Shown here piece after piece: positions 11,809-43,030 of a stretch of DNA of 56,089 nt (its first letter is position 1; every line of letters begins with the position of its first letter). This DNA is from Candidatus Sulfotelmatobacter sp. (GTDB lineage: Bacteria; Acidobacteriota; Terriglobia; Terriglobales; Acidobacteriaceae). The stretch is taken from the NCBI GenBank assembly GCA_030038125.1, contig JASHPL010000188.1, positions 1-56,089 of the forward strand, written 5' to 3'. The position numbers were made by a program, and so were the translations under genes. The notes below the pieces were generated by a model. It saw only the letters and a list, made by a program, of their open reading frames with translations. It searched no databases and was not told where the DNA came from.

Positions 11809-11860
11809 AGTTTAAAGAGAAAATGAAACCGTTTGAATCGGGCCCCTTTAACAGCAAAGC

Positions 11861-12472: not shown

Positions 12473-12484
12473 GAGTTAAATTGT

Positions 12485-12524: not shown

Positions 12525-12560
12525 GTATTTCTTTCACCACCTGCTCCGGTCCGGTATTTG

Positions 12561-12634: not shown

Positions 12635-12788
12635 TTGCGAATTCAGGACGCTAGCGAACCGTTCCGATTCCGCAGCTGGCCAACCACTGGCTGAAAGGCG
12701 CTCACGGCTTCTTAGGCTCCGCTGGCCTCTTTTCCTTCGCCCGTTTAGAATCCTCTGTCCATCTCCGCAACCGAGAGGAGCAAGACCC

Positions 12789-26927: not shown

Positions 26928-29537
26928 ATGTATAGACTCGCCATTCTTCTTACGATTGTTCCGTGCGCCATGCTGACGGTGGTTCCCGCACGTTCCCAAA
27001 CCGGCTTTCAAAAACAAGTGATCGAATTGAACTCGGGCTGGGAATTCCGGCAGGCGCCAGATCCCGGCGCAGCCGAGACGACCTGGAGGCCAGCGCAAGT
27101 TCCCGGCGATGTTCATCTCGATTTGCTGCGCAACAATCTGATCCCCGACCCTTTCTATCGCGACAACGAAGCCAAACTGCAGTGGATTGAGAACGCGAAC
27201 TGGGAATATCGCACGACCGTTCAGGCTACCCCGACATTGCTCGAACACAAAAATGTAGAGCTGGTTTTTGAAGGACTCGACGCCTATGCCCAGGTTTATC
27301 TGAACGAGAAACTGATCCTGACAGCGGACGACATGTTTCTCGAGTGGCGCGTAAACGTGAAATCCGACCTGCACTCGGGCGGCAATCAGCTACGAGTGGT
27401 TTTTCCTTCTCCGATCACGGAGGCGGCCAAAGTCGCTGCCTCGGATAAGTGGAGGGAATATACGCACACGGAAGAGAAAACTTACGTCCGCAAAGCCGCG
27501 TATGAATATGGATGGGACTGGGGTCCGCGATTTGTCACGAGTGGAATTTGGCGGCCCGCCAAACTCGAGGCCTGGAATGACGCGCGCATTTCGAATCTTC
27601 ATATCGCGCAACGGGACGTGACCGCGAGAATGGCGCACCTGACAGCAGAGATCGAAATCACGGCGGCCAATGACGCATCAGGCAGAATTACACTCGCTTA
27701 TGTTCACAAAGGGAAAAAATCGGAAACATCGCTCGACGCCGATTTGCACCCCGGCGTGAATCATTTTGAATTTCCGTTGCAAATCGAGAATCCGGATCTC
27801 TGGTATCCGGCAGGATATGGCGCGCAGCCGCGATACGAGTTCACAGCCGAACTGAAGATTGGGAAGAACGTCGAAGATCAGGCCACCGTTCACACCGGAC
27901 TGCGTTCGATCGTATTGCGCCGCGATCTTGATCAGTGGGGACGCTCTTTCGAGTTCATCATCAACGGCATTCCTATTTTCGGGAAAGGGGCCGACGTCAT
28001 TCCTTTCGACAGCTTTCCCAACCGTGTGACCACCGCGCAATATCGGCGCATTCTCGAATCTGCCCGCGACGCCAATATGAACATGATCCGCCATTGGGGC
28101 GGCGGCTATTACGAAACCGACGAGTTCTACGATTTATGCGACGAACTGGGCATTATGATATGGCAGGATTTTATGTTCGGCAACGACTGGCAGCCCGGCA
28201 CCTATGCTTTCAAGCTGACGGTAGAAAAAGAAGCTGAATATCAAGTTCGCCGGTTGCGCGATCACCCCAGCATCATTATTTTTTGCGGCAACAATGAAAC
28301 GGAAGAGGCCTTCCACTGGCAGGATCGCGACTCGCTCAATACGTCGGCCCGCATGCAGATGTGGCAGGACTATCTCACGGTCTTCAGTGGAATTCTGGCG
28401 CGCACCGTGAATCGACTTGCTCCCGAGACGCCGTATTGGCCGAGCTCTCCGAGTTCCGATTACGAAGAGACCTCAGACAAATTTCAATCCGGCGATTTTC
28501 ACGATTGGAGCGTGTGGCACGGCCGCGTTCCCTTCAGCGAATACGAAAAACACAACCCGCGCTTCATGACCGAATTCGGATTTCAATCCTTTCCGGAAAT
28601 GGCGACCGTGGATGCATTCACGCTTCCCGAAGACCGCACCAGCATTTTTACTCCTGTGATGCTCGCTCATCAGAAAAACAATGAAGGCAACTCGATCATT
28701 CACGATTACATGCTCAAGTATTATTTCGAGCCAAAAGATTTCGCGTCATTCCTCTACGCCAGCCAGGTATTGCAAGCGGAGGGAATCAAGATCGGAGCCG
28801 AGCATCTTCGGCGCAATCGGCCGCGCACCATGGGCTCCATTTATTGGCAGTTGAATGATTGCTGGCCGGTCGCTTCCTGGTCGAGCATTGATTACTACGG
28901 ACGCTGGAAAGCTCTGCAGTACTATGCGCGGCGCTTCTATGCTCCGCTTCTGGTTTCGCCGCACGTGGAAGATGGCAGCTTCAATGTTTATGTGGTCTCG
29001 GACAAGACGACTCCGACTGCTGCTCATCTCCGGGTGCGCCTGATGACGCTGGCGGGCGCAACCGTCAGCGACAAAACTCAAGACATCCAAGTCCCGGATC
29101 TCTCGAGCAAGATTTACCTGCAGCGTCCACTTTCGGAATATGTAAACGCGAACGACACCGACGCTGCGAACATTTTTGCTGTTACCGACCTAATTGTGGA
29201 CGGAAAGAAGGTATCGACGAATCTGGTTTATTTCGTGCCAACGAAGGTGGTCCATCTGCCCGATCCGCAGATCGTGAATGAACTTACGGCAGAAGGCAAT
29301 TCTTACCGCCTGCATTTAACCTCCAAAGCGTTGGCTCGAAGCGTATATGTCACTTCCGGCAATACTGATGCGCAGGTCTCCGACAACTATTTCGACCTGA
29401 TTCCCGGCGATCCGGTTGACATTATGATTCAGAGCAAGGCCGGCATCGAGGAATTGAAAAAAGATCTTAAAGTTATCTCGCTGGTCGACGCGTTCGCGCC
29501 TGCTACGGAAGTTAAATCAGCGGCGGAAGGAAATTGA
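26928..29537 (+). CDS. GH2 family beta-mannosidase
   Basis: An exported 869-residue enzyme that should release mannose from the non-reducing ends of beta-mannosides. Signal peptide residues 1-23 (ending PARSQ). The domain order is jelly roll (about 30-200, with WEYRTTV and LVFEGLDAYAQVYLN), immunoglobulin-like domain, TIM barrel and C-terminal beta domains. The acid/base is Glu457 in CGNNETEEAF and the nucleophile Glu549 in FMTEFGFQSFPE; IRHWGGGYYETDEFYDLCDE (key WGGG) is typical of beta-mannosidases rather than beta-galactosidases. ATG 26928 is chosen over 26799 for its signal peptide and GGGAG site. First gene of a seven-gene operon; the next starts two bases after its stop. Confidence 0.9.
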   Translation: MYRLAILLTIVPCAMLTVVPARSQTGFQKQVIELNSGWEFRQAPDPGAAETTWRPAQVPGDVHLDLLRNNLIPDPFYRDNEAKLQWIENANWEYRTTVQATPTLLEHKNVELVFEGLDAYAQVYLNEKLILTADDMFLEWRVNVKSDLHSGGNQLRVVFPSPITEAAKVAASDKWREYTHTEEKTYVRKAAYEYGWDWGPRFVTSGIWRPAKLEAWNDARISNLHIAQRDVTARMAHLTAEIEITAANDASGRITLAYVHKGKKSETSLDADLHPGVNHFEFPLQIENPDLWYPAGYGAQPRYEFTAELKIGKNVEDQATVHTGLRSIVLRRDLDQWGRSFEFIINGIPIFGKGADVIPFDSFPNRVTTAQYRRILESARDANMNMIRHWGGGYYETDEFYDLCDELGIMIWQDFMFGNDWQPGTYAFKLTVEKEAEYQVRRLRDHPSIIIFCGNNETEEAFHWQDRDSLNTSARMQMWQDYLTVFSGILARTVNRLAPETPYWPSSPSSDYEETSDKFQSGDFHDWSVWHGRVPFSEYEKHNPRFMTEFGFQSFPEMATVDAFTLPEDRTSIFTPVMLAHQKNNEGNSIIHDYMLKYYFEPKDFASFLYASQVLQAEGIKIGAEHLRRNRPRTMGSIYWQLNDCWPVASWSSIDYYGRWKALQYYARRFYAPLLVSPHVEDGSFNVYVVSDKTTPTAAHLRVRLMTLAGATVSDKTQDIQVPDLSSKIYLQRPLSEYVNANDTDAANIFAVTDLIVDGKKVSTNLVYFVPTKVVHLPDPQIVNELTAEGNSYRLHLTSKALARSVYVTSGNTDAQVSDNYFDLIPGDPVDIMIQSKAGIEELKKDLKVISLVDAFAPATEVKSAAEGN

Positions 29538-29539
29538 TC

Positions 29540-31093
29540 ATGAGGAGCCGAATCGCTTTCGGATTCGTTGTTCTGCTTTGCGTTGCCTCGGGTTCATCTC
29601 CGTTCGCTCAAGGTCAGTCGCGTGTTATCCACATCGACGCAGGCAAAGTCACGGGCCGCATTCGCTCGTTTCAAGGCGTGAACGGCCAACCGACTCCTGT
29701 GATGGCAGGTCTGCCGAACCTGGTTACACAGTATAAAGACCTGCACATCGATTTCGTGCGCACGCACGATTTCATGGGGCCAACCGAGATCGACTCTCGC
29801 TATGCAAATGACGATCCACTGCTGGCATGGCTTGTTCCTAACGACGAAGCACGTGCCAAGCTGGTCACCGCCGGCAACGAGAGCACTATCTTTCCGGATT
29901 GGAGCGCCGATGCGGAAAAGCCCGAGAGCTACCGCTTCGGCCCCACCGATAGAGTCATTCAAGCCATCCGCGAAACTGGCGCGCAGGTGTATTACCGCGT
30001 TGGTCGCAGTTGGGGAGCGAACCGAAACCCACCCGCGGATTTCCACAAGTTCGCCGAGATCGTCAAGCACATTGCAATGCATTACAACCAAGGTTGGGCT
30101 AACGGCTTTCATGACAATATTCGTTATTGGGAGTTCTGGAATGAGCCGGAAACTTTCTGGTCCGGAACACCAGATCAGTTTTATTCTTTGTACGAAAAAA
30201 CGGTGCGCGCGCTGAAATCGGTGGATGCGTCGTTGAAAGTGGGTGGCGATGCCAAAGCCATTCCCACCGACGGCGGTCCGTACCGCGAAGGTTTTCTCAA
30301 TTACTGCGCCGCCCACAAGTTGCCGCTGGATTTCTATTCCTGGCACACGTACGCGGACGGTTCGGCCGATCCGTACGATGCGGTCAGAATCGGAAAGGAA
30401 ATTCGAGATCTGCTCGACTCCAAAGGATTCCCCAAGGCGGAAAGCATACTTTCCGAGTGGAATTTGAGCGCAGATTTTACTGATGTTGAAAAACAGTTGC
30501 TCCGCGGACCAGAGAACGCAGCATATATCGACACGGTACTGACCTATCTGCAGGATTCCACAATCAGTCAGGCTGAGTTTTATCGCGGAGACGCAACCTG
30601 GATGGGCCTGTTTGGGCTGCATGGCGAGTACTTCAAGACCGCCTACGCTTTCAAGGCTATGGCTTTGATGCTGCAGACTCCGCAGCGACTCGAAGCGACC
30701 GGTGGGGATACGATCGGCTTTGCTGTTCTCGCCGGCCGGTCCGCGGACGGAAAAACTGTACAGGTCTTGATCAGTAACTACGAAATTCCGCCCGGGTACA
30801 AGCCGCATCAGATGCCTCCGCCCGCTGCCGTGCAAGCGGTGTTGAACGTGGATTTTTCCAGCATGAAATTTCTACCGCGAAGAACGAACATTCATTACGT
30901 GAACAACTCTGGCAATTCGCTAACGATCGATCATCTTCCCTGGGGAAATGCTCCATTCACAGTTAAGCGATTCCGCATCACGAACACTGAGGAGCTCGCA
31001 TTAGTGGAAGAGAAAAAATTCCAAGGCGGAAAACTGGAACTCTCGGATCCCCTGCCGCCGCCGGGCGTGGAGTTGATCATTCTGAAGCGGTGA
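29540..31093 (+). CDS. GH39-like glycoside hydrolase
   Basis: An exported 517-residue retaining glycosidase of clan A. Signal peptide 1-27 (ending PFAQGQ). The barrel shows LHIDFVRTHDFMGPTEID near its start, the acid/base Glu202 in YWEFWNEPE and the nucleophile Glu306 in ILSEWNLS; a beta-sandwich follows from about residue 400. GH39 members are beta-xylosidases, alpha-L-iduronidases and others, so the linkage is uncertain; in this locus a role on hemicellulose or glycan side chains is likely. ATG 29540 is preceded by GGAAGGA (29525-29531), and the gene is translationally close to the GH2 gene. Confidence 0.8.
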   Translation: MRSRIAFGFVVLLCVASGSSPFAQGQSRVIHIDAGKVTGRIRSFQGVNGQPTPVMAGLPNLVTQYKDLHIDFVRTHDFMGPTEIDSRYANDDPLLAWLVPNDEARAKLVTAGNESTIFPDWSADAEKPESYRFGPTDRVIQAIRETGAQVYYRVGRSWGANRNPPADFHKFAEIVKHIAMHYNQGWANGFHDNIRYWEFWNEPETFWSGTPDQFYSLYEKTVRALKSVDASLKVGGDAKAIPTDGGPYREGFLNYCAAHKLPLDFYSWHTYADGSADPYDAVRIGKEIRDLLDSKGFPKAESILSEWNLSADFTDVEKQLLRGPENAAYIDTVLTYLQDSTISQAEFYRGDATWMGLFGLHGEYFKTAYAFKAMALMLQTPQRLEATGGDTIGFAVLAGRSADGKTVQVLISNYEIPPGYKPHQMPPPAAVQAVLNVDFSSMKFLPRRTNIHYVNNSGNSLTIDHLPWGNAPFTVKRFRITNTEELALVEEKKFQGGKLELSDPLPPPGVELIILKR

Positions 31094-31126
31094 ATGTTCT
31101 GGGACGGGACCAAGGCAAGAAGAATT

Positions 31127-31819
31127 ATGAGCACTTGGAGCGGCGACGAAGAACTTTTAACCACGATCCGGCGTGAGTTATTTACCTGCGTCGTGGGCGA
31201 TGTCATGGACAAACTTGGGCTGCAGCACCAGTTCCTTCCTCCGCAGATTCGCCCGCTGCGTCCGGATATGATCTTGATTGGCCGTGCCATGCCGGTGCTT
31301 TCCATCGATGTTTTTGAGGAAAAGGTTACGGGGGCTCACAACCAACTGATGGAGAAGCCGTTCGGGTTGATGCTGGAAGCGCTGGATGACTTGAAGGCCA
31401 ACGAAGTCTATGTCAATACAGGATCATCCCCGCGCAACGCACTTTGGGGCGAGCTGATGACTGTTCGCGCGCGCAAGCTGGGAGCGGCGGGAGCGGTCTT
31501 GAACGGCTATTTGCGCGACACCAAAGCCGTGCTCAAGCTCGATTTTCCCGCCTTCTGTTGGGGATCTTACGCACAGGACTCTGCCCCCCGTTATAAGGTT
31601 GTCGACTTCCGCATTGCGATTGAAATCGGTGCGGTTCGCATACGGCCGGGCGATTTTCTCTTTGGAGATATCGATGGAGTCTGCGTAATTCCGAGCGAAG
31701 CCGCGACAGAGATTTTTACGAAAGCGCTGGAAAAGGCTCGCGGTGAGAAGCTGGTGCGAAAGGCGTTAGAAGAGGGCAGCAGTGCGGTTGCTGCCTTTGA
31801 AAAGCACGGAATCATGTAA
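31127..31819 (+). CDS. RraA-like aldolase/demethylmenaquinone methyltransferase-fold protein
   Basis: A 230-residue protein of the RraA fold, which contains divalent-metal 4-hydroxy-4-methyl-2-oxoglutarate/oxaloacetate aldolases as well as the RNase E inhibitor RraA. Visible: CVVGDVMDKLGLQHQFLPPQIRPLR, the GxLxxD-type GYLRDTKAV motif with the metal/pyruvate-site Arg and Asp, and FGDIDGVCVIPSE. Its place between glycosidases and a dehydrogenase/dehydratase pair points to a metabolic aldolase, plausibly for a 2-keto-3-deoxy sugar acid (inference). The in-frame ATG at 31094, directly after the GH39 stop, is an alternative start that adds 11 residues. Confidence 0.8.
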   Translation: MSTWSGDEELLTTIRRELFTCVVGDVMDKLGLQHQFLPPQIRPLRPDMILIGRAMPVLSIDVFEEKVTGAHNQLMEKPFGLMLEALDDLKANEVYVNTGSSPRNALWGELMTVRARKLGAAGAVLNGYLRDTKAVLKLDFPAFCWGSYAQDSAPRYKVVDFRIAIEIGAVRIRPGDFLFGDIDGVCVIPSEAATEIFTKALEKARGEKLVRKALEEGSSAVAAFEKHGIM

Positions 31820-31845
31820 GAAAGTTTTGCAGAAATACGAAGCCT

Positions 31846-32619
31846 ATGATTCAGATCGATCTTTCCGGCAAGGTGATTCTCATTACGGGCGCGATGGGCG
31901 CGATCGCCGAGCACATGGTGAAGAGACTGAGCGCTGCCGGAGCCACGTTGGTTCTGCTCGATCTCAAGCCCGCGAATGAGGCTCATGAGACTTTGCGGTG
32001 GTGGAAGATTCAGGAAGACAGTTACGTTTACCACTCCCTCGACATCACCGATTCCGCGAGATTGGCTCAGGTAGTAAGTGGCTCGTTCGAACGTTTTCCT
32101 CAGATGGATACTGTCCTGGGACATGCTGGCGGGTGCGGCTTGCATCCTTTCGCCGAAACGTCTGAATCGGAATTCGAGCGCATTTTTCGCTTCAATTTTC
32201 TGGCGCAGGTCGTGCTGACGCGCTGCGTTTTTGCGCAATGGACAAAGCGCAAGATCGCGGGTCATCTGATCTTCACGTCTTCTTATGTGGCACGTGTTCC
32301 GCATACGAAAATTCCTGCTTATGCATCGGCCAAAGCTGCGCTTGAGAATTTGGCCCGCTGCATGGCTCTGGAGTATGCTGCGTCGGGAATTCGCGTCAAC
32401 GTGATTGCACCAGGAAATGTTGCGGCGGGAAGTTCACTCAAAGTTTTTGAGGAAGACGCGGCTTATCGTGATTTCGTGCTCCGCGTGTCGCTAGGGCAAC
32501 GCAACAGCCCTGAGTCGATTGCAGACGCGTTTTTATTTCTGTGTTCGCCTCTTGCGGCGGAGATCAGCGGACAAATCCTCAACGCCGACTACGGCTCGGG
32601 AATCGGGAATCGACTATGA
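31846..32619 (+). CDS. Short-chain dehydrogenase/reductase (SDR)
   Basis: A 257-residue classical SDR. The nucleotide motif is TGAMGAIAEHM (the usual TGxxxGxG ends in Ala), Asp59-like acidic residue LLDLKP follows beta-2, and the active site is FTSSYVARVPHTKIPAYASAKAA with Ser, Tyr and Lys. The acidic residue after beta-2 suggests NAD preference. It is 26 bases after the RraA-like gene and its TGA overlaps the ATG of the next gene, a mannonate dehydratase homologue. Likely substrate: a sugar or sugar acid feeding mannonate, such as fructuronate or mannose; not provable here. Confidence 0.82.
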   Translation: MIQIDLSGKVILITGAMGAIAEHMVKRLSAAGATLVLLDLKPANEAHETLRWWKIQEDSYVYHSLDITDSARLAQVVSGSFERFPQMDTVLGHAGGCGLHPFAETSESEFERIFRFNFLAQVVLTRCVFAQWTKRKIAGHLIFTSSYVARVPHTKIPAYASAKAALENLARCMALEYAASGIRVNVIAPGNVAAGSSLKVFEEDAAYRDFVLRVSLGQRNSPESIADAFLFLCSPLAAEISGQILNADYGSGIGNRL

Positions 32620-33734
32620 AAGTGGGCCTCGGTTTATACCGGCACATGCTGACGCGCGAGTACTACGATTTTGCGCGACAGGCAGGATGCACACATGTTG
32701 TTGTTCACCTGGTGGATTACTTCAACCAGGGCTCGAGCAATCCGCGCCACAACCAGCCCACCGGAGGTAAATATCAGCCTTGGGGAGTTGCAGGCGATCC
32801 CGAAAAACTTTGGACCGTCGCCGAACTGAAAAAGCTACGCAAGGAAATCGAGGATGCAGGTCTCGTTCTCGCGGCCATCGAGAATCTTGATCCCGCCCAT
32901 TGGCACGATGTTCTTTTGGATGGTCCGCGCCGCCCGCGACACATTGAGAACGTAAAGACGATCATCCGGAATATGGGCGAGGCCGGCATTCCAGTCCTCG
33001 GATATAACTTCAGCCTGGCCGGCGTTTGCGGCCGAGTCACGACTTCATCGGGTCGCGGGGGAGCATTGACGGTTGGCATGGATGGTCCCGCCGATGAGCA
33101 ACCCGTGCCCAAGGGCGTGATCTGGAACATGATCTATGACCCAAATGCCGCGCCCGGCACGTTGCCATCAATTTCACACAATGAACTGTGGCGGCGCTTG
33201 CAGCGATTTCTCGAAGATGTGATCCCGGTTGCGGAGCAGGCTGATGTGCGGCTGGCGGCTCATCCGGATGATCCTCCCATGCCGACCATGCGCGGACAGC
33301 CGCGTCTGGTGTATCAGCCGCACATGTACCAGCGCCTGCTCGATCTGGTTCCGAGCCCCACCAATGCGCTGGAACTGTGCGTGGGAACGATCGCGGAAAT
33401 GACAGAGGGAGATGTTCATGAAGCCGTCGATCGGTACAGCGCTCAGCGCAAGATCGCGTACATTCATCTGCGCAATGTGGTAGGGAAGGTTCCACACTAT
33501 CGAGAGACTTTCATCGATGAGGGACAGGTGGACATGGTGCGCATTTTGACAATGTTGAATCGCAATCACTTCGAAGGTGTCGTCATTCCCGACCACACTC
33601 CGCAAATGTCCTGTGCCGCCCCCTGGCATGCGGGGATGGCTCACACGCTAGGCTTCATTCTCGCTGTGAAAGCGATGCTGGAATCTCCGAAGATGGCTCC
33701 AGACGTGGTGACAGAAACAACATCGCGAGGCTGA
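32616..33734 (+). CDS. Mannonate dehydratase family protein (divergent UxuA)
   Basis: A 372-residue TIM-barrel protein of the UxuA family, which dehydrates D-mannonate to 2-keto-3-deoxy-D-gluconate using a divalent metal. Conserved elements: GLGLYRHMLTREYYDFARQAGCTH at the start (key GLGL, GC), GYNFSLAGVCGR, the metal-site LAAHPDDPPMPTMRG, IAYIHLRNV and VIPDHTPQM. It is shorter and clearly different from the second UxuA at 38315, especially in the middle and in having DHTPQM instead of RPDHGH. The start overlaps the SDR stop (ATGA), indicating coupling. The substrate could be another aldonate. Confidence 0.82.
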   Translation: MKVGLGLYRHMLTREYYDFARQAGCTHVVVHLVDYFNQGSSNPRHNQPTGGKYQPWGVAGDPEKLWTVAELKKLRKEIEDAGLVLAAIENLDPAHWHDVLLDGPRRPRHIENVKTIIRNMGEAGIPVLGYNFSLAGVCGRVTTSSGRGGALTVGMDGPADEQPVPKGVIWNMIYDPNAAPGTLPSISHNELWRRLQRFLEDVIPVAEQADVRLAAHPDDPPMPTMRGQPRLVYQPHMYQRLLDLVPSPTNALELCVGTIAEMTEGDVHEAVDRYSAQRKIAYIHLRNVVGKVPHYRETFIDEGQVDMVRILTMLNRNHFEGVVIPDHTPQMSCAAPWHAGMAHTLGFILAVKAMLESPKMAPDVVTETTSRG

Positions 33735-33738
33735 TAAC

Positions 33739-35157
33739 CTGACTTCCCCGCCCACGCAACCGAAGTCGCTCGAGCAAACTCCATCCCGTCCCGCCTCTCG
33801 GGGAGCACTGTTTGTCGCAGCCACAGTTTCCACTCTCGGCGGATTACTTTTCGGATACGACAATATTGTTATCAGCGGCGCAATCGGCTACCTAAGCCGG
33901 CTGTTCCATCTCGACGCGGCCGGAATGGGATGGGCCGCCGGTTGCGCTCTAATCGGGTGCATCGTCGGGTGCGCCTTTGCTGGAACAGTTGCCGATCATC
34001 TCGGAAAGAAAAAAGGACTCGCTCTCTGTGCCGTTTGTTTTGCTCTTTCCTCCGGCGGAATTTTCTTTGCAGCGAGCCTTCATCAATTCGTGATCTGGCG
34101 CCTGATTGGCGGGTTGGGCATCGGTGCCGCTTCGGTCATATCTCCAAATTACATTGCCGAGATTGCCCCCACTCGAGTGCGTGGCCGCTGCGTGACTCTC
34201 TACCAGTTGGGCATAGTCGCCGGAATCCTTGCCGCGGTCTTGGTCAACATGCTGATCCAGCGCATGGGCGATGATTCGTGGAATACGACCGTGGGCTGGC
34301 GATGGATGTTCCTCGCCGGCATCGTACCTGCGCTTTTGTTCGGTGGCATGATTCTTCCGGCTGTGGAGAGTCCGCGCTGGCTGATGAAGATGGGACGTCG
34401 CGATCAAGCCGTCAGTGTGCTGACTCGCGTCAATGGCTCCGCGGTCGCGATGCGCGAGGCTGCCGAAATCGAAAATTCTCTGATGATCGAAGAGGGCCAT
34501 ATCTCGGAGCTGTTCTCGACCTTTCGCCGTCCGTTATTGCTGGGCATCATGTTGGCCGGATTGCAGCAGATCAGCGGGATTACCCCGGTTTTTTCTTTTC
34601 TCCCGGAGATCTTCCGCTCTGCCGGAGCCGCGACCGGCGCTGCCTTTTTTCAGTCCGTGCTGGTGAGCCTCATCAACCTGTTCTTTACCCTGATTGCACT
34701 TTGGCTCGTAGATCGCGCAGGAAGAAAGACGCTGATTCTCGCGGGTACCACGGTGCAGTTTCTCTCATTTCTTCTGGTCGGATGGTTCTATCACGTCCAC
34801 GGCAGTGGACTTGCCGTCCTGATCCTTGTAATGAGTTTCGTGGCCGGGCATGCATTCGGAAACGGCGTGGCATGCTGGGTCATCATTTCAGAAATCTATC
34901 CCACGAAGGTTCGCGGGCGCGGCATGTCGATCGCGACTACCGCACTTTGGCTGGTGGGATATTTGGGGAATCAACTCTTCCCGCTCATGGAGAAGAATCT
35001 CGGATCAGACGGAACCTTCTGGTGTTTCAGCGCCGGAGCTCTGTTGACAATCATTCTCGTCGCCTTGCTGATCCCCGAAACCAAAGGGCGTTCACTTGAA
35101 GAGATCACCAGATTTTGGGCGCCGCAAGGCCAAACGGTGACTTCAGTAGCCGACTAA
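33739..35157 (+). CDS. MFS sugar porter (no canonical start codon)
   Basis: A 12-helix major facilitator of the sugar porter family. Motifs: GGLLFGYD in helix 1, RGRCVTLYQLG after helix 4, PAVESPRWLMKMGR before the central loop, DRAGRKTLILAG and the terminal IPETKGRSLEEI. The first ATG in frame is 33925, but the helix-1 motif lies upstream of it (about 33840-33870), so the gene must start earlier. From the last upstream stop (33709) to 33925 the frame has no ATG, GTG or TTG; CTG 33739, about nine bases after GCGAGG and five after the UxuA stop, is proposed. An indel is the alternative. It probably imports the mono- or oligosaccharide released by the glycosidases. Confidence 0.8.
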   Translation: MTSPPTQPKSLEQTPSRPASRGALFVAATVSTLGGLLFGYDNIVISGAIGYLSRLFHLDAAGMGWAAGCALIGCIVGCAFAGTVADHLGKKKGLALCAVCFALSSGGIFFAASLHQFVIWRLIGGLGIGAASVISPNYIAEIAPTRVRGRCVTLYQLGIVAGILAAVLVNMLIQRMGDDSWNTTVGWRWMFLAGIVPALLFGGMILPAVESPRWLMKMGRRDQAVSVLTRVNGSAVAMREAAEIENSLMIEEGHISELFSTFRRPLLLGIMLAGLQQISGITPVFSFLPEIFRSAGAATGAAFFQSVLVSLINLFFTLIALWLVDRAGRKTLILAGTTVQFLSFLLVGWFYHVHGSGLAVLILVMSFVAGHAFGNGVACWVIISEIYPTKVRGRGMSIATTALWLVGYLGNQLFPLMEKNLGSDGTFWCFSAGALLTIILVALLIPETKGRSLEEITRFWAPQGQTVTSVAD

Positions 35158-35181
35158 TGTCGCGTTATCGAGGTGCGATCG

Positions 35182-36518
35182 ATGAAGACCACTTCCTCTT
35201 CTCTCTCCACTGCGGACAATCGGATCGTCAGTGGAGTTGCTCGATTGTCCTCCGGCGTCAGTCGGCGCGATGCTCTCAGATCCATCGCGCTGACGGCAGC
35301 GGCCGCCGCACTACCATCTCGATTAACAGATGGAGTTTTTGCTGAAACATCGCAGTTGAATAATCGAGTAGCTTCGACGTCCAAGCACGCGAAGAATCCG
35401 AAATGGTATGGGTTCAACCTACTTGAATACTTTTCGACTGATTCGGATTGGATGAAGTATTTTCCGTACAAAAACGATGGCATGTTCGTCGAGGATGACT
35501 TTCGCTGGATACGCGACTGGGGTTTCAATTGGGTCCGTTTGCCGATGGATTACCGCTTTTGGACGGACCCTCAGGACTTGCGAGAATTCAGGAAGAGAAA
35601 GTTGCGCCCGTCGATCGCGCCATTCGTCTCGGCGACAAATATGGGGTCCACGTCAATTTGTGCCTGCACCGAGCGCCCGGGTACTGCATCCTTGACACCC
35701 TGAATGAGGCGCTCACAGGGATCCACATCACCAAAGAAAAAAGCAGCGTTTTTAGCGATCCGAAAATGCTGGAGGCATTCGTTTATCAATGGACATTCTT
35801 GGCCGGTCGCTACAAAGGGATTTCCAGTGAAAAACTCAGTTTCAACCTTGTGAACGAACCCATCGTGCTGCCGGCGGCTCCGGAAATGCACCCATCCAGC
35901 GCCACGGAGAAAGCGAAGCCAGAGAATGTCTTCAGAGGAGAATTCGCGCGCCAGCATGCTGCCGACTACACCCGAGTCGCGTCCGCTGCGATTGACGCGA
36001 TTTCAAAAACGGATTCGCAACGCCTGGTCGTCACGGATGGATACTACGGCGGGACCGCTCCGATTCCAGAATTGTTCGAAACCAGAGCACTGCAAAGCTG
36101 CCACACATATCATCCCGTGCAGCTTACGCATTACCGCTGTGAGTGGGCGCGTGGCTTGCTGACGGGACACGAGCCGGTTCCATCCTGGCCGACGAAAGAT
36201 CGTGCCGGGGTCACCATCGACCGAGCAGAGCTGGAAAAGACATTTCACCCGTGGGGCGAATTGGCTGATCATGGAATTCCCATTCACTTCGGGGAAATGG
36301 GATGCTACAAGCACACGCCCCCGAATGTCGTTCTGGCCTGGTTTGATGACACTCTGAGCGTCCTTAGTGATTTGCATTCGGGATGGGGGTTGTGGAATTT
36401 CCGCGGACCATTCGGCATTCTCGATACGGAGCGCGCGGGAACGCACTATGAATCCTGGCATGGTCACCAACTCGATCGTCCGCTGCTCGACTTGCTGCTG
36501 CGCAAGATGAAGGCATAA
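35182..36518 (+). pseudogene. GH5 family glycoside hydrolase, frameshifted
   Basis: Two overlapping frames together encode one GH5 endo-glycanase. The first (from ATG 35182) gives a Tat-type leader (SRRDALRSIALTAAAAALPS) and the barrel start as far as MDYRFWTDPQDLREF; its continuation to 35703 is nonsense. The second frame takes over near base 35590 (EEKVAPVDRAIRLGDKYGVHV) and runs to 36518. It holds the acid/base Glu in FNLVNEP (base 35856) and the nucleophile Glu in HFGEMGCYK (base 36294). The whole would be about 445 residues. GH5 enzymes include beta-mannanases and endoglucanases, which would fit the adjacent beta-mannosidase. The shift may be a real lesion or a sequencing error; all active-site residues are intact. 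Confidence 0.85.
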
Positions 36519-36568
36519 GCACGCAATCCGCCGAGAGAAGGACGCCGAAGAATGTTTTCAGTTTTCCT

Positions 36569-37504
36569 CTAGCGAGTCCGTGTGAATGCTCGGAACTCAC
36601 TTTCGGGCTGGCCCGCGATTTCGGTTGGAAACGCATATAAACTGCCGGCGAGTCGATCACTTGCTGGCGCTTCGATTTTCGCCGTGGTTACGTAGAGAGT
36701 CTTGCGGTCGCGCCCGCCAAACGTGCAGGTTGTAACGTTCTTCACCGGCATTTCGACGACGCGATCGATGCTTCCGTCCGGGGCGGCACGCACAACGCAC
36801 GCTCCAGAAAAACGGCAGTTCCAGAGATAGCCTTCGGAGTCCACCGTGGAACCATCCGGCAGTCCGCGGCTAAATCCTTGAAGGAAAGGACGCTCATTTG
36901 ATATCGAGCCGGTCGTCGCGTCATAGTCGTACTGCCATATGACATTGGCAAGCGAATCGCCGAAGTAAAATTTTTTCGCATCCGGACTCCAGGCTAGAGT
37001 ATTTGAAATTCCAATGTCTCGACGCCACACCGTTACTTTTCTATCCGGGTCGATGCGAAATAGGATGCCGTCTCGTCCACTTGCTTCTCCACCTGATCCA
37101 TCGGAGTCCACGTTGTTGCGCATCGAGCCGACCCAGAGACTTCCACGAGGATCGACTCGGGCGTCATTCAGGCGAACTCGGGGCCATCCTTGCAAACAGA
37201 ACAATGGCTCGTGCCGTACATCGGTTTCCGGCTCCCACAAAATCACACCTGAACCCAAAATCACCGCGAGCACGTCTGACCGATCCGTGCGTGTGAGAGC
37301 CGTTACTGGCTCGTCGAAGAACCAGGTGCGAACGGTCTGATCGGAGAGTTTGTAACGATGAATCAGGAATCGGTTGATGTCACACCAGTAGACCGCTTCA
37401 TGTAAGGCGTGCCAGACCGCGCCCTCACCGCACGCATCGCCAGTGGGTGCAACGCAAACGGCAGGACTGATCTTGGAGCTTTCGATGTCAGGCACGGGGA
37501 TCAT
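36569..37504 (-). CDS. SMP-30/gluconolactonase family lactonase
   Basis: A 311-residue six-bladed propeller of the SMP-30 family, which opens sugar lactones with a divalent metal. The metal ligands are recognisable: Glu in GEGAVWH, Asn in RLNDARVDPRG, Asn in ISNTLAWSP and Asp in LPDGSTVDSEGYLWN. No signal peptide, so cytoplasmic. It overlaps the upstream SDR gene by four bases, so an SDR that makes a lactone and this lactonase are co-translated: a typical sugar oxidation pair. Convergent with the GH5 gene. Confidence 0.88.
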   Translation of the reverse strand: MIPVPDIESSKISPAVCVAPTGDACGEGAVWHALHEAVYWCDINRFLIHRYKLSDQTVRTWFFDEPVTALTRTDRSDVLAVILGSGVILWEPETDVRHEPLFCLQGWPRVRLNDARVDPRGSLWVGSMRNNVDSDGSGGEASGRDGILFRIDPDRKVTVWRRDIGISNTLAWSPDAKKFYFGDSLANVIWQYDYDATTGSISNERPFLQGFSRGLPDGSTVDSEGYLWNCRFSGACVVRAAPDGSIDRVVEMPVKNVTTCTFGGRDRKTLYVTTAKIEAPASDRLAGSLYAFPTEIAGQPESEFRAFTRTR

Positions 37505-38289
37505 TGCACTCCTATACCTGCTAATAGTCCACCATCTACGACATAATCTCCGCCGGTACAGAACGCAGCTTTATCGGAAACGAGGAAAGCAGCCAGCTCC
37601 GCGACCTCTTCCGGAGTTCCGATTCTTCCAATCGGATGAGCCGCGCCAAAGCGTTCAAATACCGCTTCTGTCGGGAGGTCTGCCCCGAAATGTGCCGCAG
37701 ATCGGGCCAGCATCGGCGTGCGAATGGAACCGGGGCTGATGGAGTTCACGCGAATGTGATCTTTCGCATGATCGAGCGCCAACGCCCGGGTCAAGCTATG
37801 CACCGCGCCTTTTGATGTAGCGTAGGCGGCCACCCCGCGCTGGCAAGCACGACCTTGCACCGAGGAAAGATTCACAATTGCACCTCCGCCTCGCTTCGCC
37901 ATTTCCGGAATGCCGAAGTGTGCGAGCAAAAAAATGCCACCCACATTCACCATCATGCAGCGGTTCCAGGTTTCGGGGTCGGTCTCGACCGCTGTGCCAA
38001 AGGGATGAATCGCCGCCGCGTTGACGATAATGTCGAGCCCGCCGTAGGTCGCAACGGTTTTGGCAATCATGGCCTGTACTTGTCCGGGCTGGCTTACGTC
38101 GCAATGCTCGACACGGAGCGGCAGTCCGGAGGCTTGCGATTCCTGTTGCAATTCCTGGTTTGCACCTGGCTCGATACCACAAGCGACAACGGTGCAACCG
38201 CCAGTTGCGAGGCGCTTCGCGATCGCGCGTCCGATTCCAGTCGTGCCAGTTACAATCGCAACGCGATTCTCAAATTCCTTCATTCTCAC
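37501..38289 (-). CDS. Short-chain dehydrogenase/reductase (SDR)
   Basis: A 262-residue classical SDR: TGTTGIGRAIAKRLA cofactor motif, NAAAIHPFG, active-site Ser in VNLSSVQGRACQRGV, YATSK with Tyr and Lys, SPGSIRTPM and the C-terminal GGDYVVDGG. Residue 'ACGIEP' after beta-2 gives no clear NAD/NADP preference. Located between canonical uxuA (25 bases upstream) and the SMP-30 lactonase (overlapping start), it probably oxidises an aldose or reduces a keto-uronate. An ATG at 38283 is an alternative start. Confidence 0.88.
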   Translation of the reverse strand: MRMKEFENRVAIVTGTTGIGRAIAKRLATGGCTVVACGIEPGANQELQQESQASGLPLRVEHCDVSQPGQVQAMIAKTVATYGGLDIIVNAAAIHPFGTAVETDPETWNRCMMVNVGGIFLLAHFGIPEMAKRGGGAIVNLSSVQGRACQRGVAAYATSKGAVHSLTRALALDHAKDHIRVNSISPGSIRTPMLARSAAHFGADLPTEAVFERFGAAHPIGRIGTPEEVAELAAFLVSDKAAFCTGGDYVVDGGLLAGIGVQ

Positions 38290-38314
38290 TCCTTCTCGCT
38301 GGCGCCCGAACTCC

Positions 38315-39517
38315 TTACTTCGTCTCCTTGTTCGCGAGTTCAGGAATCGCGTACTTCAGTCCTGCGATGACTCCACGTAGTTCGGCAAGGCCCTTCAACC
38401 GTCCCACCAGTGAATACCCGGGATTCGTTTGTCGCAAGATATCGTCGGCCAGCAGGTGCCCGTGATCGGGACGCATGGGAATCTCGCAGTCTGGCCGATT
38501 CCGCTTTCTTCGCCGCGCTTCTTCTTTCAGAATCGCACAAATCACTCCAACCATATCGGAACTGCCGCGCAGGTGTTCCGCTTCGTAGAAAGATCCGTCG
38601 GGCTCGCGCGAAACCTGCCGCAAATGCACAAAATGTATCCGCGTGGCAAATTCCTCGACCATAGCGGGCAGATCATTATCGGCGCGCGCACCGTACGAGC
38701 CAACACAAAACGTCAGCCCATTCGCTGCGGTATCGAGGCCAGTCAGTATCGACCTCACATCGTCGGCGGTAGAAACGACACGCGGCAAGCCGAATAGCGA
38801 CCAAGGCGGGTCATCTGGATGAATCGCCAAGCGCACTCCAAGCTCCTCTGCGACCGGAACAACTTCGCGCAAGAACGAAATCAGATTTCTTCGCAACTCA
38901 TCGGCGGTAACTCCTGTGTACTGCGCGATCAAGTTTTTCAAAGTTGGGCGGTCGTACGATTCCTCGGCGCCCGGCAGTCCCGCTATGATGGTACGTTCTA
39001 ATTCATCGCGCCGAACTTCCGGCATCGTATCGTAACGAGCGCGAGCCGCGGACACGCGCTCGGGAGAATAGTCGTGCTCCGCGCCGGGCCGCCGCAGCAC
39101 AAACACGTCATAGACCGCAAAATCGGTAACATCGAATCGAAGCGCATATCCCGTGCTTGGCAGCCTCCATCGCAAATCGGTGCGCGTCCAGTCAACCACT
39201 GGCATGAAGTTGTAGCAGACAACTTTCACACCAGCCCGGGCAATTACCGCGAGAGAATCTTTCCAGGCATCGGTGAATTGACGAAAAGGACCGGTCTGCA
39301 GCCTGATCGAGTTGTGAATTGGAATGCTTTCGACCACCGACCAAGTCAGTCCCGCCGCCTCGATCTCCGATTTTCGTTTGAGCACCTCGTCGTCCGGCCA
39401 AGCTTCGCCCCGATAGAGATGATGCAGCGCCGAGACCACTCCCGTGGCTCCGGCTTGGTTAACGTTATCGAGCGATACTGGGTCTTGTGGTCCAAACCAC
39501 CGCCAGCTTTCTTTCAC
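38315..39517 (-). CDS. uxuA: Mannonate dehydratase
   Basis: A 400-residue canonical UxuA: D-mannonate to 2-keto-3-deoxy-D-gluconate and water, with Fe2+ or Mn2+. Typical elements are [24 protein letters not shown] at the N-terminus (key WFGP, GATG), [58 protein letters not shown] and IPMRPDHGH. Start GTG 39517. A TAATAT -10-like element lies six bases before it on the same strand, so the mRNA may be leaderless. First gene of the - strand operon uxuA-SDR-SMP30. It is more like E. coli UxuA than is the paralogue at 32616. Confidence 0.93.
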
Positions 39518-39626
39518 GCCGCTATATTAAACGCATTCGAGTGCGGGATGAGACTCTGTCGGCGCTTTCAAGCCTGATAGACAGAGAATTGCTTTCCATT
39601 GGAAGATATAAGAACGGAGAGACGCG

Positions 39627-40283
39627 ATGTCGGAAGTTGGCGCAGACCGATCTAACGGTCTAAAGGCTGTGATCTTTGATTATGGCGAAGTGCTGTGCCA
39701 CGCTCCAACGCCGGCGGAAAACCAGCGCCTGGCAAGTTTCTTCGGCATTGGCGTCGATCAACTTCCTGTGCTTTGGGCACGGAATCGCGGACCCTTCGAC
39801 CGCGGCGATCTTACTCCAGAGGTCTACTGGTCGATGTTAGCGAAAGACGCGGGAGTGGATATCAGTCCCAGCCTGATTGCCGAGATCTGCGAACTCGACC
39901 TAACCATGTGGAGCAACGTTAATGTTGGTATGGTGGCGTGGGCGCAGAAATTGAGCTCGGCAGGTGTGAAGGTCGGCCTGCTTTCCAACATGCACCCCAA
40001 CATGGTGGCGCATTGCCGTAAGTATTTTTCCTGGCTTAAGGACTTTGATTGCGTGACCTTTTCCGCCGAGGTTCGCATGATCAAGCCGGACCCGGCAATT
40101 TACCAGCACACGCTTCGTGGATTGGGGGTTACGGCCTCTGAGACTTTGTTTCTTGACGACCGCGAGATCAACGTTGCGGCTGCGAAAGCTCTGGGGATTT
40201 ACGCTCTTCGTTTTGAATCCATGGCGCAGCTGCGCCGCGACTTACAAACGATCGGATTCAAGCTCTTGCCTGCAAACTCCTGA
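39627..40283 (+). CDS. HAD-superfamily hydrolase, subfamily IA
   Basis: A 218-residue phosphatase-like protein. Motif I is VIFDYGEVL with the nucleophile Asp18; the usual second Asp (DxD) is Gly20, as in YihX-like members. Motif II is LLSNM, motif III the Lys in RMIKPDPAIY, motif IV FLDDREINV. The cap is helical. Such enzymes dephosphorylate small sugar phosphates. Divergent from uxuA with a 109-base gap; GGAGAG precedes the ATG. Its link to the locus is positional only. Confidence 0.87.
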   Translation: MSEVGADRSNGLKAVIFDYGEVLCHAPTPAENQRLASFFGIGVDQLPVLWARNRGPFDRGDLTPEVYWSMLAKDAGVDISPSLIAEICELDLTMWSNVNVGMVAWAQKLSSAGVKVGLLSNMHPNMVAHCRKYFSWLKDFDCVTFSAEVRMIKPDPAIYQHTLRGLGVTASETLFLDDREINVAAAKALGIYALRFESMAQLRRDLQTIGFKLLPANS

Positions 40284-40304: not shown

Positions 40305-41381
40305 TTATTGCTGCTGACCTGCTGGCGGTTGTCCCGGAGTGATGTTTTGTAGTTTTTGGAATTCCTGCATTTCGTGCTGCGCCTCCGCCGTTTTGCCTTG
40401 CCGGCGATACATTCCGGCGAGAGCAAAATGCGTTTGTGCCGCCAAGTCACTTTCTTTTTCAATCGATAATAGGTCGATCCAGGCTTTTTCGGCGGCGGCG
40501 GTATCGCCTTCCAGAAATGCAGCCTTGCCCAGCGAATAGAGCACCTCCGGCATCTGCGGACGCAGATGATCGGCCCGAATCAATTGCTCGCGTGCTTCAT
40601 GCGCCTTGCCCTCCTGCAGCAGCGCTGAGCCGAGGCGGTAGGCTGCTTCGGCATTCCCTGGTTGCATTTTCGTCTGCGCTCGAAATTCGACTTCTGCTTT
40701 GTCCCATTGCGAGGATTTGGCGTAAACGTCCCCAAGCTCTAAATGAAGCTCAGGGGTGTCCGGACGCAATTTAAGAGCGGCAAGAAATTCGCGCTCGGCC
40801 TGCGGCATTTGTCTTAACACGAAATAATTTTCCCCCATCGCCTCATGGGCGCGGGCCGAATCCGGATAAGCGGCCACTAGAGTATCGATCGATTGCTTCG
40901 ATAATAATCCGCTAGCCCGGCCGAGATAGTACAGCAAGTCGGGATCGTTCGGACGCTCTTCGAGCGCAGCTTGCAGATGAGTGACCGCCTCTTTCAGGCG
41001 TCCAGCGTTGACTTCCGCAATCCCCAGCGCAGCGGTTTCATGCGCCCGTTCCAAATGAGGGATCGCTTCCTCGGCATAACCTTCGACAAGCAAGGCGTAA
41101 CCGAGCAACTGATGGGCCGGAAGCAGGTCGGGCTTAAGATCCACGGCATGCTTGAGCGGGGCAATCGCACGATCGTATTCACGATTTTCCAGGTATGCCT
41201 GCCCCAGACTCATAAAGCCTTCCGCCAGGTTGGGATCGAGATCCGTTGCCTTGCGAAATTCTGCGATCGCGACGTCGATATGATGTTCTTTCTCTGCCGT
41301 TATTCCCGTTTGCAGGTGGGAAAGGGCATCGGGGGACGCTGCCTGGCTGGAAAGCCAAAGCAGTATCAAGACATGAATCAT
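40305..41381 (-). CDS. Secreted TPR protein
   Basis: A 358-residue exported protein made almost entirely of tetratricopeptide repeats. Signal peptide 1-15 (MIHVLILLWLSSQAA), then about nine TPR units with the W/LG/Y-A-P pattern (for example AEGFMSLGQAYLENREYDRA and PEVLYSLGKAAFLEGDT). A Gln/Pro tail closes it. Its ATG overlaps the TGA of the CRTAC1-like gene upstream, so the two are translated together and probably form a complex. This pairing recalls the single-chain FG-GAP/TPR fusion at 21430. Confidence 0.87.
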   Translation of the reverse strand: MIHVLILLWLSSQAASPDALSHLQTGITAEKEHHIDVAIAEFRKATDLDPNLAEGFMSLGQAYLENREYDRAIAPLKHAVDLKPDLLPAHQLLGYALLVEGYAEEAIPHLERAHETAALGIAEVNAGRLKEAVTHLQAALEERPNDPDLLYYLGRASGLLSKQSIDTLVAAYPDSARAHEAMGENYFVLRQMPQAEREFLAALKLRPDTPELHLELGDVYAKSSQWDKAEVEFRAQTKMQPGNAEAAYRLGSALLQEGKAHEAREQLIRADHLRPQMPEVLYSLGKAAFLEGDTAAAEKAWIDLLSIEKESDLAAQTHFALAGMYRRQGKTAEAQHEMQEFQKLQNITPGQPPAGQQQ

Positions 41382-43030
41382 GGCTTCTCCGGTTCGCGTA
41401 TCTCGAGAAACTGGTCGGCGTGCACATCAGCGAGCGACTGGTGAATTCCGGACGGCCAAAGAACCTCGATCTTCGCGGTCTGAGCTGCTCCCAGACCGAA
41501 ATGCAGCCGCTTGTCGTTGGAGCAGAGATAGCTGCCCGTCGCCGTTGCGTACCGAGTCTGTCCGTTCACCCGCACGCGAGCCCCGTATCCGTCTCGGTTG
41601 CTGCGTGTGCCGCGCAATGAAATAGTCAGCCAATGCTGATTTCCGCCGCGGTTCATAAACACCTGAGGCGCGCCGCCCAGGACGCTCACCACAACATCTT
41701 GCCAGCCGTCATTGTTCAAATCGCCAAAGGCAGCTCCGCGACTGGCGGCCGGGACCGTGGTGCCGGGATCCACGGACTCGAAGCGTCCGTTGTGATTCAT
41801 GGCTAACAGGGGCAACTGCTTGTAGTGCAGCGACGGATCGATGTCCTCTACATTGTCGAGCACATGACTTTGAGCCACAAATAAATCTTTCCAGCCATCG
41901 TTATCGAAATCTTCCAGACCCACTCCCCATCCGGAACTGCCGCTTGACAGGACTCCCAGGCCGGTTTCAAGACTTCGATACTCGAAAAAGCCGCCGCCAT
42001 CGTTGTGATACAAACTGAAAATCTCTCGCGGAAGTTCGGTCACCACGATGTCGGGACGTCCGTCATTATCGTAGTCCTGAAAGACGACGCCCATTCCCGA
42101 CATTCGTCTACCATCCTGCGATAGCGCGGCGCCTGCTTCCAGCGCGTTTTCGGTGAAGGTTCCATTCCCATTATTGTGGAACAGAAACTGCCTCATGCCG
42201 TCATTCGAAACGAAGATGTCGGTGAAGCCGTCATCGTCATAATCGGCGAACGCCAGTCCCAAGGCTCTTCCTTTGCTTGATGCAATGCCGGAGCGCTGGC
42301 TTACGTCGGTAAAGGTTCCGTCGCCGTTATTGTGAAAGAGGATATTGGTGGTCACCGGAAATTCTTCCGGCGGGCAATAGGTGTGCCACTCTGCCCCGCA
42401 ACTTTTGCTGTGCTTCGTGTCCCATTCCATGTAACGGGTTACGAATAAATCCAATTTACCGTCATTGTCGTAATCCAAGAAGCCTGCCGATACTGACCAT
42501 CCTCCTGCCGCAACCCCGGCTTTCTCGGTGACATCCGTGAAGGTGCCATCGCCGTTATTGTGATAAAGCGTGTTCTTGCCATAGTTCGTGACGTAGATAT
42601 CCGGATAACCGTCATTATCGTAGTCGCCAACCGCGACTCCCATGCCGTAGTTTCCATCTCCTGCATTCGCCAGGCCGGCGTGCTCGGTGACGTCGGTAAA
42701 GCTGCCGTCCTTGTTTTGCCGGAACAACCGGTTCCAGTACCTAGGATCGTGACGGTCGAAGTCCTCAGTCTTCATCGGATCCAACACGCGGCCGCCGTTG
42801 ACCATGAAAATATCGAGCAAGCCATCGTCGTTGTAATCGAGCAGGGCAATTCCTCCGGGCATGGTCTCGATGAGGTACTTCTGCGTCGTGGGAGAGTTCT
42901 GCAGGACGAAATTCAATCCTTTTAGCTGCGTTAGTTCAAGAATCGAGGACTGCGGAGAGGCCGCACAAAATATCAGCCCGGAGAAGCACACCACCGCAAA
43001 GAGAAATTTCGGCCCTGACTGCTTCATCAT
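41378..43030 (-). CDS. CRTAC1-like FG-GAP/ASPIC-UnbV surface protein
   Basis: A 550-residue exported protein: signal peptide 1-25, then at least seven FG-GAP/VCBS repeats with DxDxDG-type calcium loops (LLDYNDDGLLDIF, VGDYDNDGYPDIYV, FADYDDDGFTDIFV) and the recurring 'FHNNGDGTFTDV'. An ASPIC/UnbV domain ends the protein (LRGTRSNRDGYGARV, VLWPSGIHQSLADV). The propeller probably binds glycans or other surface proteins. It is co-transcribed with the TPR gene and divergent from the TonB-dependent receptor across a 256-base gap. Confidence 0.88.
   Translation of the reverse strand: MMKQSGPKFLFAVVCFSGLIFCAASPQSSILELTQLKGLNFVLQNSPTTQKYLIETMPGGIALLDYNDDGLLDIFMVNGGRVLDPMKTEDFDRHDPRYWNRLFRQNKDGSFTDVTEHAGLANAGDGNYGMGVAVGDYDNDGYPDIYVTNYGKNTLYHNNGDGTFTDVTEKAGVAAGGWSVSAGFLDYDNDGKLDLFVTRYMEWDTKHSKSCGAEWHTYCPPEEFPVTTNILFHNNGDGTFTDVSQRSGIASSKGRALGLAFADYDDDGFTDIFVSNDGMRQFLFHNNGNGTFTENALEAGAALSQDGRRMSGMGVVFQDYDNDGRPDIVVTELPREIFSLYHNDGGGFFEYRSLETGLGVLSSGSSGWGVGLEDFDNDGWKDLFVAQSHVLDNVEDIDPSLHYKQLPLLAMNHNGRFESVDPGTTVPAASRGAAFGDLNNDGWQDVVVSVLGGAPQVFMNRGGNQHWLTISLRGTRSNRDGYGARVRVNGQTRYATATGSYLCSNDKRLHFGLGAAQTAKIEVLWPSGIHQSLADVHADQFLEIREPEKP

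Follow-up and report, generated by a model that had tools for sequence, protein, structure and literature searches.

The window analysed here is a complete contig (C368; GenBank JASHPL010000188.1, 56,089 nucleotides) of the genome of a Candidatus Sulfotelmatobacter sp., an acidobacterium probably from soil (assembly GCA_030038125.1; 6.02 Mb in 494 contigs, 93% complete), and between positions 26,928 and 40,283 it carries two facing groups of genes that, on balance, appear to form a mannan (probably glucomannan) catabolic island into which mannose enters by oxidation. On the + strand lie, in order, genes for a GH2 and a GH39 glycosidase, an RraA-like protein, a short-chain dehydrogenase (SDR1), UxuA1, a sugar porter and a GH5 glycosidase, and these are faced on the - strand by UxuA2, a second short-chain dehydrogenase (SDR2) and an SMP-30 lactonase. 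In the proposed scheme exported GH2, GH5 and GH39 enzymes would free sugars for import by the porter, and the predicted activities of SDR2, SMP-30 and UxuA2 would convert D-mannose to mannonolactone, the lactone to D-mannonate and the latter to 2-keto-3-deoxygluconate (KDG). For KDG the most likely fate is phosphorylation and cleavage by a KDG-kinase-like protein and a 2-keto-3-deoxy-6-phosphogluconate (KDPG) aldolase, whose genes adjoin each other on another contig; RraA may also cleave KDG directly.

Soil and peat, where Acidobacteriota are plentiful, contain mannans among their major hemicelluloses. A gene set of this kind lies far beyond chance, as blocks of it are found again in other genomes, 60-88% identical, and the locus is coherent and conserved, though patchy. 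All the genes listed in the first-pass annotation of this DNA are present, in the two facing groups that it described; the GH5 gene, however, is frameshifted, and the two UxuA homologues, which had been treated alike, are not equal.

The UxuA2-SDR2-SMP30 triad and its relatives

UxuA2 clears the curated TIGR00695 cut-off (Table 1), matches UxuA of Escherichia coli (4eac) at 463 bits and is the same as that enzyme at the active-site positions compared. The metal ligands, and the histidine and tyrosine that we take to be catalytic from the Streptococcus suis enzyme (the tyrosine being its Tyr325), are kept in UxuA2, in E. coli UxuA and in six of six aligned UxuA2-type relatives. Among solved structures SDR2 is closest to 3vtz, which was deposited as a glucose 1-dehydrogenase, with 2dtd in fifth place; both are presumably Thermoplasma aldohexose dehydrogenases of the AldT group, and a stretch reading SVQ is, by eye, common to SDR2, 3vtz and 2dtd and missing from three other chains compared. 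SMP-30 clears the PF08450 gathering score of 26.3, and the motifs GEG, ND, N and PDG, which we take to be metal ligands, occur in all seven rows of its alignment, the window protein included.

The three genes form a recurring unit. At a threshold of at least 55% identity SDR2 is found in 14 of the 87 loci examined, and UxuA2 and SMP30 each accompany it in 10 of these 14. Among the loci that miss UxuA2, L041 ends 106 bases past SDR2 and L152 has UxuA2 in pieces that are 49-60% alike. The order UxuA2-SDR2-SMP30 also recurs on contigs without UxuA1 (L132 and L133), and in L134 UxuA2-SDR2 stands beside an SMP-30 of 35% identity; the genome concerned (G151) has no UxuA1 match at E values up to 1e-30. 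A scan of named-genome contigs kept 80 loci from 225 relatives, 41 of them under Acidobacteriota titles and 39 under other titles, most of these being Verrucomicrobiota and Planctomycetota (groups assigned by record title); as loci end at contig ends or at 10 kb, the co-occurrence counts are lower bounds. Alongside UxuA1, SDR2 is present in 7, UxuA2 in 6 and SMP30 in 6 of the 41 Acidobacteriota-titled loci. Of the 10 loci that hold triad genes, 6 also have a homologue of GH2, GH39 or GH5, as against 2 of 31 other Acidobacteriota-titled loci (Fisher p 0.001, the loci not being independent).

A plasmid search with UxuA1 and RraA as queries led to Ensifer and Sinorhizobium megaplasmids. In Ensifer adhaerens and Sinorhizobium chiapasense homologues of SDR2, SMP30, UxuA2, UxuA1 and RraA lie within about 10 kb, the E. 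adhaerens proteins being 60% (RraA), 60% (UxuA2), 58% (SDR2), 50% (UxuA1) and 59% (SMP-30) identical to those of the window; a Rhizobium copy of the five-gene cluster has broken frames. Since most genes of the Ensifer and S. chiapasense clusters are nearly the same (67-98%), the two count as one case. In the rhizobial cluster RraA overlaps the UxuA2 homologue (with the listed starts), while the divergent side holds a GntR-family gene and then a sugar-type ATP-binding cassette (ABC) transporter, SDR2, UxuA1 and SMP-30; a fumarylacetoacetate (FAA) hydrolase and an SDR come after the cluster. A gene of Ensifer that by eye resembled an aldose 1-epimerase had no Pfam match, nor had its S. chiapasense counterpart, and it was not used.

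Queries with UxaC, the uronate isomerase, and UxuB of E. coli matched one of 153 loci (UxaC, in a haloarchaeon) and no UxuB, in a set that includes source-genome stretches over the window though not the window itself, in which many stretches are short, and for which the UxuB query cannot tell SDR-type reductases apart. As a control, the UxaC query recovered the UxaC of the source genome at 49% identity. None of the stretches examined from bacterial relatives, Ensifer and Sinorhizobium included, yielded a uronate isomerase. The co-recurrence of the five genes without a uronate isomerase thus fits the oxidation of an aldose, which, judged from sequence, is most likely D-mannose. The idea that an SDR, SMP-30 and UxuA oxidize an aldose beside mannan hydrolases, put forward in the first-pass annotation, is strengthened by the recurrence of the triad, the affinity of SDR2 to 3vtz, the glycosidase homologues that accompany triad genes and the lack of uronate isomerase in these bacterial stretches.

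The sugar oxidized

Several observations weigh against a dedicated mannose route. The source genome encodes a UxaC on contig C487 (601 bits against a cut-off of 387) and has UxuA homologues at this locus only; because of this UxuA2 may also serve glucuronate. It could be argued that the locus as a whole belongs to glucuronate catabolism, with SDR2 or SDR1 reducing fructuronate to mannonate, UxuA2 dehydrating the product and UxaC supplied from elsewhere in the genome. The UxaC gene of C487 does adjoin genes for an SDR resembling kduD/mannonate oxidoreductase and for a galactonate-transporter-like protein of the major facilitator superfamily (MFS), and in L042, L048 and L050 a gene of a galactonate-type transporter cluster, similar to TIGR00893, comes after SDR2 (the L050 copy, when scanned, scored 274 against a cut-off of 395). 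It should be emphasized, however, that C487 carries its own SDR, that the 153 loci yielded only the haloarchaeal UxaC and no UxuB, within the limits of that query, that 10 of the 14 SDR2 loci also hold a lactonase and that the glycosidases of the window are of the mannan type. Glucuronate catabolism is, in our judgement, quite an unlikely account of the locus.

A further point against mannose is provided by S. chiapasense, in which the FAA hydrolase is closest to 2,4-didehydro-3-deoxy-L-rhamnonate hydrolase (368 against a cut-off of 500) and, with the SDR beside it, resembles the final steps of the diketo route for L-rhamnose. If another aldose (L-rhamnose, L-fucose or a hemicellulose sugar) were oxidized, UxuA2 and UxuA1 would act on its aldonate; this would suit the RhaT-family transporter gene that in L142 stands after UxuA1 where the sugar porter would be (10564-13803), as well as the GH95 or GH65N-type genes found close by in L153 and L134. 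UxuA2, however, is a canonical D-mannonate dehydratase by both score and residues, and the window encodes a beta-mannosidase and an endomannanase-like enzyme, and we consider another aldose unlikely. L142 also has, nearby, a gene for a DUF5054 protein with weak similarity to GH38. It is also the case that mannose could enter by phosphorylation, as contig C227 holds a partial match to mannose-6-phosphate isomerase (PMI), which at 26.3 bits is just above the cut-off of 22, in a full-length open reading frame (ORF) that adjoins ORFs resembling, by eye, manC and manB.

The remaining points concern SDR2, the completeness of the triad and its distribution. SDR2 falls below the cut-off of the NCBIfam aldose dehydrogenase model PRK06398 (212 against 341 bits) and has a histidine aligned with Glu84 of AldT, a residue that we take to be important for mannose. 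UxuA2 is missing from L053, which has SDR2 and SMP30, and from L036, where the match to SDR2 covers just its last 74 residues; SMP30 was not found within the stretches examined of L042, L048 and L050. Of 299 sampled genomes from the class, 28, the source genome included, have a UxuA1 that is at least 57% identical (UxuA-like matches of any kind occur in 119, weaker ones of about 32-43% being commoner), and 4 have SDR2 at 70% or more, with at most eight SDR candidates scored per genome. Only 3 of the 28 genomes have both. The UxuA1 block is thus commoner than the triad and rarely found with it, and must therefore often work without it. Three sampled genomes of the same genus gave no match to UxuA1 (E up to 1e-30) or to SDR2 (E up to 1e-60), which speaks against wide conservation, and the locus is therefore patchy.

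The RraA-SDR1-UxuA1 block and the fate of KDG

RraA, SDR1, UxuA1 and the porter constitute a second conserved block. With UxuA1 in the 41 Acidobacteriota-titled loci come RraA in 19, SDR1 in 16 (at least 55% identity) and the porter in 16, whereas in the 39 other loci RraA accompanies it once and SDR1, the porter, SDR2, UxuA2 and SMP30 never. The nearest relatives of the source genome's UxuA1 bear Acidobacteriota titles. RraA-UxuA1 is also present in the isolate KBS 96. Some rows of the block hold other genes. In L042 (8026-9231), L050 (8041-9231) and L144 (8067-9230) a gene resembling an Xaa-Pro peptidase, odd for a sugar pathway, lies within the RraA-SDR1-UxuA1 row, the L050 copy, when scanned, being below cut-offs. 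In L055 (6901-14531) and L056 RraA-UxuA1 follows, by eye, a large gene resembling a pyrroloquinoline quinone (PQQ) dehydrogenase and precedes genes resembling enolase and phosphoglycerate mutase.

The RraA protein of the window passes the Pfam RraA-like domain and lies below all listed NCBIfam cut-offs, including those of the 4-hydroxy-4-methyl-2-oxoglutarate (HMG)/4-carboxy-4-hydroxy-2-oxoadipate (CHA) aldolase models (PRK09262, 60 against 179; TIGR02798, 51 against 304.5). Its Arg-Asp motif, presumably the catalytic one of the RraA fold, is invariant in 27 of 27 aligned rows, 23 of them distinct. Gene context is suggestive of a KDG aldolase. On a Phocaeicola plasmid (L153, 8632-20189) RraA (59%) stands in a row with an enolase-type dehydratase, an SDR, SMP-30 and a sodium:solute symporter, preceded by an AraC-type gene (by eye); GH95 and GH2 genes also occur in the region, and no other aldolase was seen among the ORFs inspected there. 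The row looks like another oxidative sugar route that uses RraA. Together the rhizobial and Phocaeicola contexts make it more likely that RraA acts on sugar acids, possibly as an aldolase. SDR1 has the YxxxK and nucleotide-binding motifs, read by eye.

The first-pass annotation had noted the lack of UxaC, KDG kinase, KDPG aldolase and PMI and had proposed a non-phosphorylated route. In searches of the genome these four indeed had no match on the window contig; UxaC and the PMI match, however, lie on the contigs named above, and a KDG-kinase-like PfkB gene and a KDPG aldolase gene adjoin each other on contig C387, so that a wholly non-phosphorylated ending is not supported. The kinase-like protein is 62% identical to that of relatives and below every curated kinase cut-off; the aldolase clears TIGR01182 (194 against 156 bits). 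Of the 80 loci, 8 hold the kinase cluster, 9 a KDPG aldolase and 11 an enolase-type dehydratase near the RraA-SDR1-UxuA1 block; the dehydratase gave no match in the source genome in a search made without a control. As both genes are in the genome, and both lie near the block in several relatives, a phosphorylated ending is therefore available and probably used, and KDG would probably go at least partly through phosphorylation.

A different role for RraA and UxuA1 is suggested by work on Paenibacillus sp. B2, where, in the part of the report that deals with these genes, uxuA adjoins the gene for an RraA-family aldolase and hydratase and aldolase roles are proposed for the two proteins (PMC12673573). 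If the pair acted likewise in aromatic (lignin) catabolism, UxuA1 would be a hydratase and RraA an HMG-type aldolase. No ring-cleavage family, however, was met among the ten window proteins scanned, and the RraA-UxuA1 pair keeps company with a sugar porter, a lactonase and glycosidases; a function in lignin catabolism is highly improbable.

UxuA1 is a protein unlike UxuA2. The two are the only PF03786 (UxuA) matches in the source genome, and UxuA1 passes that Pfam family while failing the curated UxuA cut-offs (TIGR00695, 112 against 199.55; PRK03906, 152 against 191). It falls in a separate clade of the UxuA tree, and the long branch that divides it from UxuA2 rules out a recent duplication. 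In an alignment of UxuA1-type proteins (105 rows, 94 of them distinct, as some genes were entered twice) the metal-ligand positions are kept in all 105 rows, whereas the position aligned with the supposed catalytic tyrosine holds methionine in every row and tyrosine in none. The AlphaFold model of UxuA1 has a mean predicted local distance difference test (pLDDT) score of 81, with values below 50 at residues 328-335, which adjoin the loop with the missing tyrosine; against the Protein Data Bank (PDB) the three solved mannonate dehydratases rank first. The loss of the tyrosine might seem to show that UxuA1 cannot be a mannonate dehydratase, an argument that was dropped because a haloarchaeal UxuA-like protein encoded beside UxaC likewise has no PGY at this position; for the same reason UxuA1 may still be a dehydratase. 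It probably acts on the same aldonate as UxuA2 or a related one, with a rebuilt active site. The tyrosine-less subfamily is widespread, occurring under record titles of seven phyla, and where annotated it is named mannonate dehydratase, a name that is doubtful because the subfamily is without a residue thought to be catalytic. A Ti plasmid of Agrobacterium larrymoorei also carries a UxuA1-type gene (about 44%; L148, 9001-10101), within a region of ABC-transporter genes for sugar.

In its widest form the mannose reading would make SDR2, SMP-30, UxuA2, UxuA1 and RraA one portable pathway, common to Acidobacteriota and the megaplasmids of rhizobia and leading from an aldose, probably mannose, to KDG, RraA being a new sugar-acid aldolase and the tyrosine-less UxuA1 catalysing a step new to the UxuA fold. 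We put this forward only as a doubtful, if conceivable, extension. A similar sugar-acid gene set is present in unrelated soil and root bacteria.

Layout of the locus and comparison with known systems

The features of the locus are collected in Table 1. With the listed starts, 4-base overlaps join GH2 to GH39, SDR1 to UxuA1 and SDR2 to SMP30. The RraA start was picked by alignment to relatives (the first ATG is at 31094), and that of the porter is uncertain, either CTG 33739 or ATG 33925. The N-terminus of GH2 resembles, by eye, a signal peptide, as do the other glycosidase starts, and export would follow from this. The closest solved relative of GH39, 5z3k, was deposited as 'glucosidase'. The longer piece of GH5 matches the endoglucanase 1vjz (221 bits) and the bifunctional endomannanase/endoglucanase 3w0k (176 bits); an intact relative aligns to it in two frames, placing the frameshift near 35590, which is either an assembly error or the mark of a pseudogene. 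The HAD-family gene adjoins the - strand triad, and L040, L045 and L052 each hold a homologue that is 44% or more identical. The large flanking ORFs (21430-25308, 41378-43030 and 43287-47030) resemble, by eye, FG-GAP/ASPIC repeat proteins and, in one case, a protein of the TonB-receptor type.

Table 1. Genes of the candidate mannan locus, with positions in the window
Feature	Position	Strand	Evidence
GH2 beta-mannosidase	26928..29537	+	Pfam GH2 and mannosidase Ig domains; best solved relative the beta-mannosidase 6byc, 775 bits
GH39 family glycosidase	29534..31093	+	PF01229, 61 bits; best solved relative 5z3k, 297 bits
RraA-fold protein, candidate 2-keto-3-deoxy-aldonate aldolase	31127..31819	+	PF03737, 108 bits
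SDR1 short-chain dehydrogenase	31846..32619	+	PF13561/PF00106
UxuA1, divergent UxuA subfamily	32616..33734	+	PF03786, 184 bits; below NCBIfam UxuA cut-offs
MFS sugar porter	33739..35157	+	PF00083, 326 bits; TIGR00879, 314 against cut-off 237.8
GH5, frameshifted	35173..36518	+	relatives are endoglucanase/endomannanase
SMP-30/SGL family lactonase	36569..37504	-	PF08450, 260 bits; SMP-30 protein 7plb, 139 bits
SDR2, aldose-dehydrogenase-like	37501..38289	-	3vtz, 177 bits; 2dtd, 145 bits
UxuA2, canonical D-mannonate dehydratase	38315..39517	-	TIGR00695, 481 bits against cut-off 199.55
HAD-family hydrolase, loosely associated	39627..40283	+	PF00702/PF13419

If the mannose reading is correct, a bacterial oxidative mannose route would change the annotation of mannose use, because UxuA is routinely read as glucuronate catabolism. 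What the locus shares with the bacterial glucuronate pathway (UxaC, UxuB, UxuA) is UxuA2, whose score marks it as a genuine UxuA, but a lactonase is present and neither UxaC nor a UxuB of the E. coli type was found at the locus or in the bacterial relatives' stretches. Non-phosphorylated oxidation of L-fucose and L-rhamnose proceeds through an SDR, a lactonase, a dehydratase and an aldolase or diketo hydrolase. The order of the predicted chemistry is the same here, and the rhizobial copies also have the FAA hydrolase and SDR pair; in contrast, the dehydratase is a UxuA and not an enolase- or IlvD-type enzyme, and the downstream genes vary between phyla. With the class II aldolases of the RraA fold the window protein shares the fold and the conserved Arg-Asp motif, differing in that it lies below the NCBIfam cut-offs. 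Such a fold need not mean an aldolase, as indicated by what is reported of Flavobacterium FlDet, an RraA-fold protein that acts as a dehydratase/decarboxylase (PMC8563752).

The open-licence literature searched yielded no oxidative mannose route in Acidobacteriota, in agreement with the first-pass annotation; close precedents, however, come from Thermoplasma and haloarchaea. The published account of Thermoplasma acidophilum, in the portions bearing on mannose, has AldT, ManD and KDG aldolase converting mannose in vitro, and its authors wrote that a mannose-specific oxidative pathway was not yet discovered (PMC6901390). In common with the scheme proposed for this locus, AldT turns mannose into mannonolactone, a mannonate dehydratase forms KDG, and the dehydrogenase and dehydratase genes are adjacent; there, however, the lactone opens spontaneously and KDG aldolase is used rather than RraA (PMC6901390). 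The present locus, unlike Thermoplasma, has a canonical UxuA, an SMP-30 lactonase, RraA and a second UxuA. ManD of Thermoplasma (Ta0753) is presumably of the enolase type. If the predictions hold, the locus would offer candidate mesophilic enzymes for a cascade that, as described in that account, has so far been built from Thermoplasma enzymes (PMC6901390). In Natronoglomus mannanivorans genes for a mannanase and a GH2 beta-mannosidase occur with two mannonate dehydratase genes, in a cluster for which mannose oxidation and a semi-phosphorylative Entner-Doudoroff ending are predicted only; its figure legend names RraA, as at this locus, but the organism is archaeal and the passages on the cluster mention no SMP-30 (PMC10963439). 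Oxidative use of mannose is, on this comparison, already known from the enzymes of Thermoplasma and from prediction in haloarchaea, and a bacterial version would be the new part.

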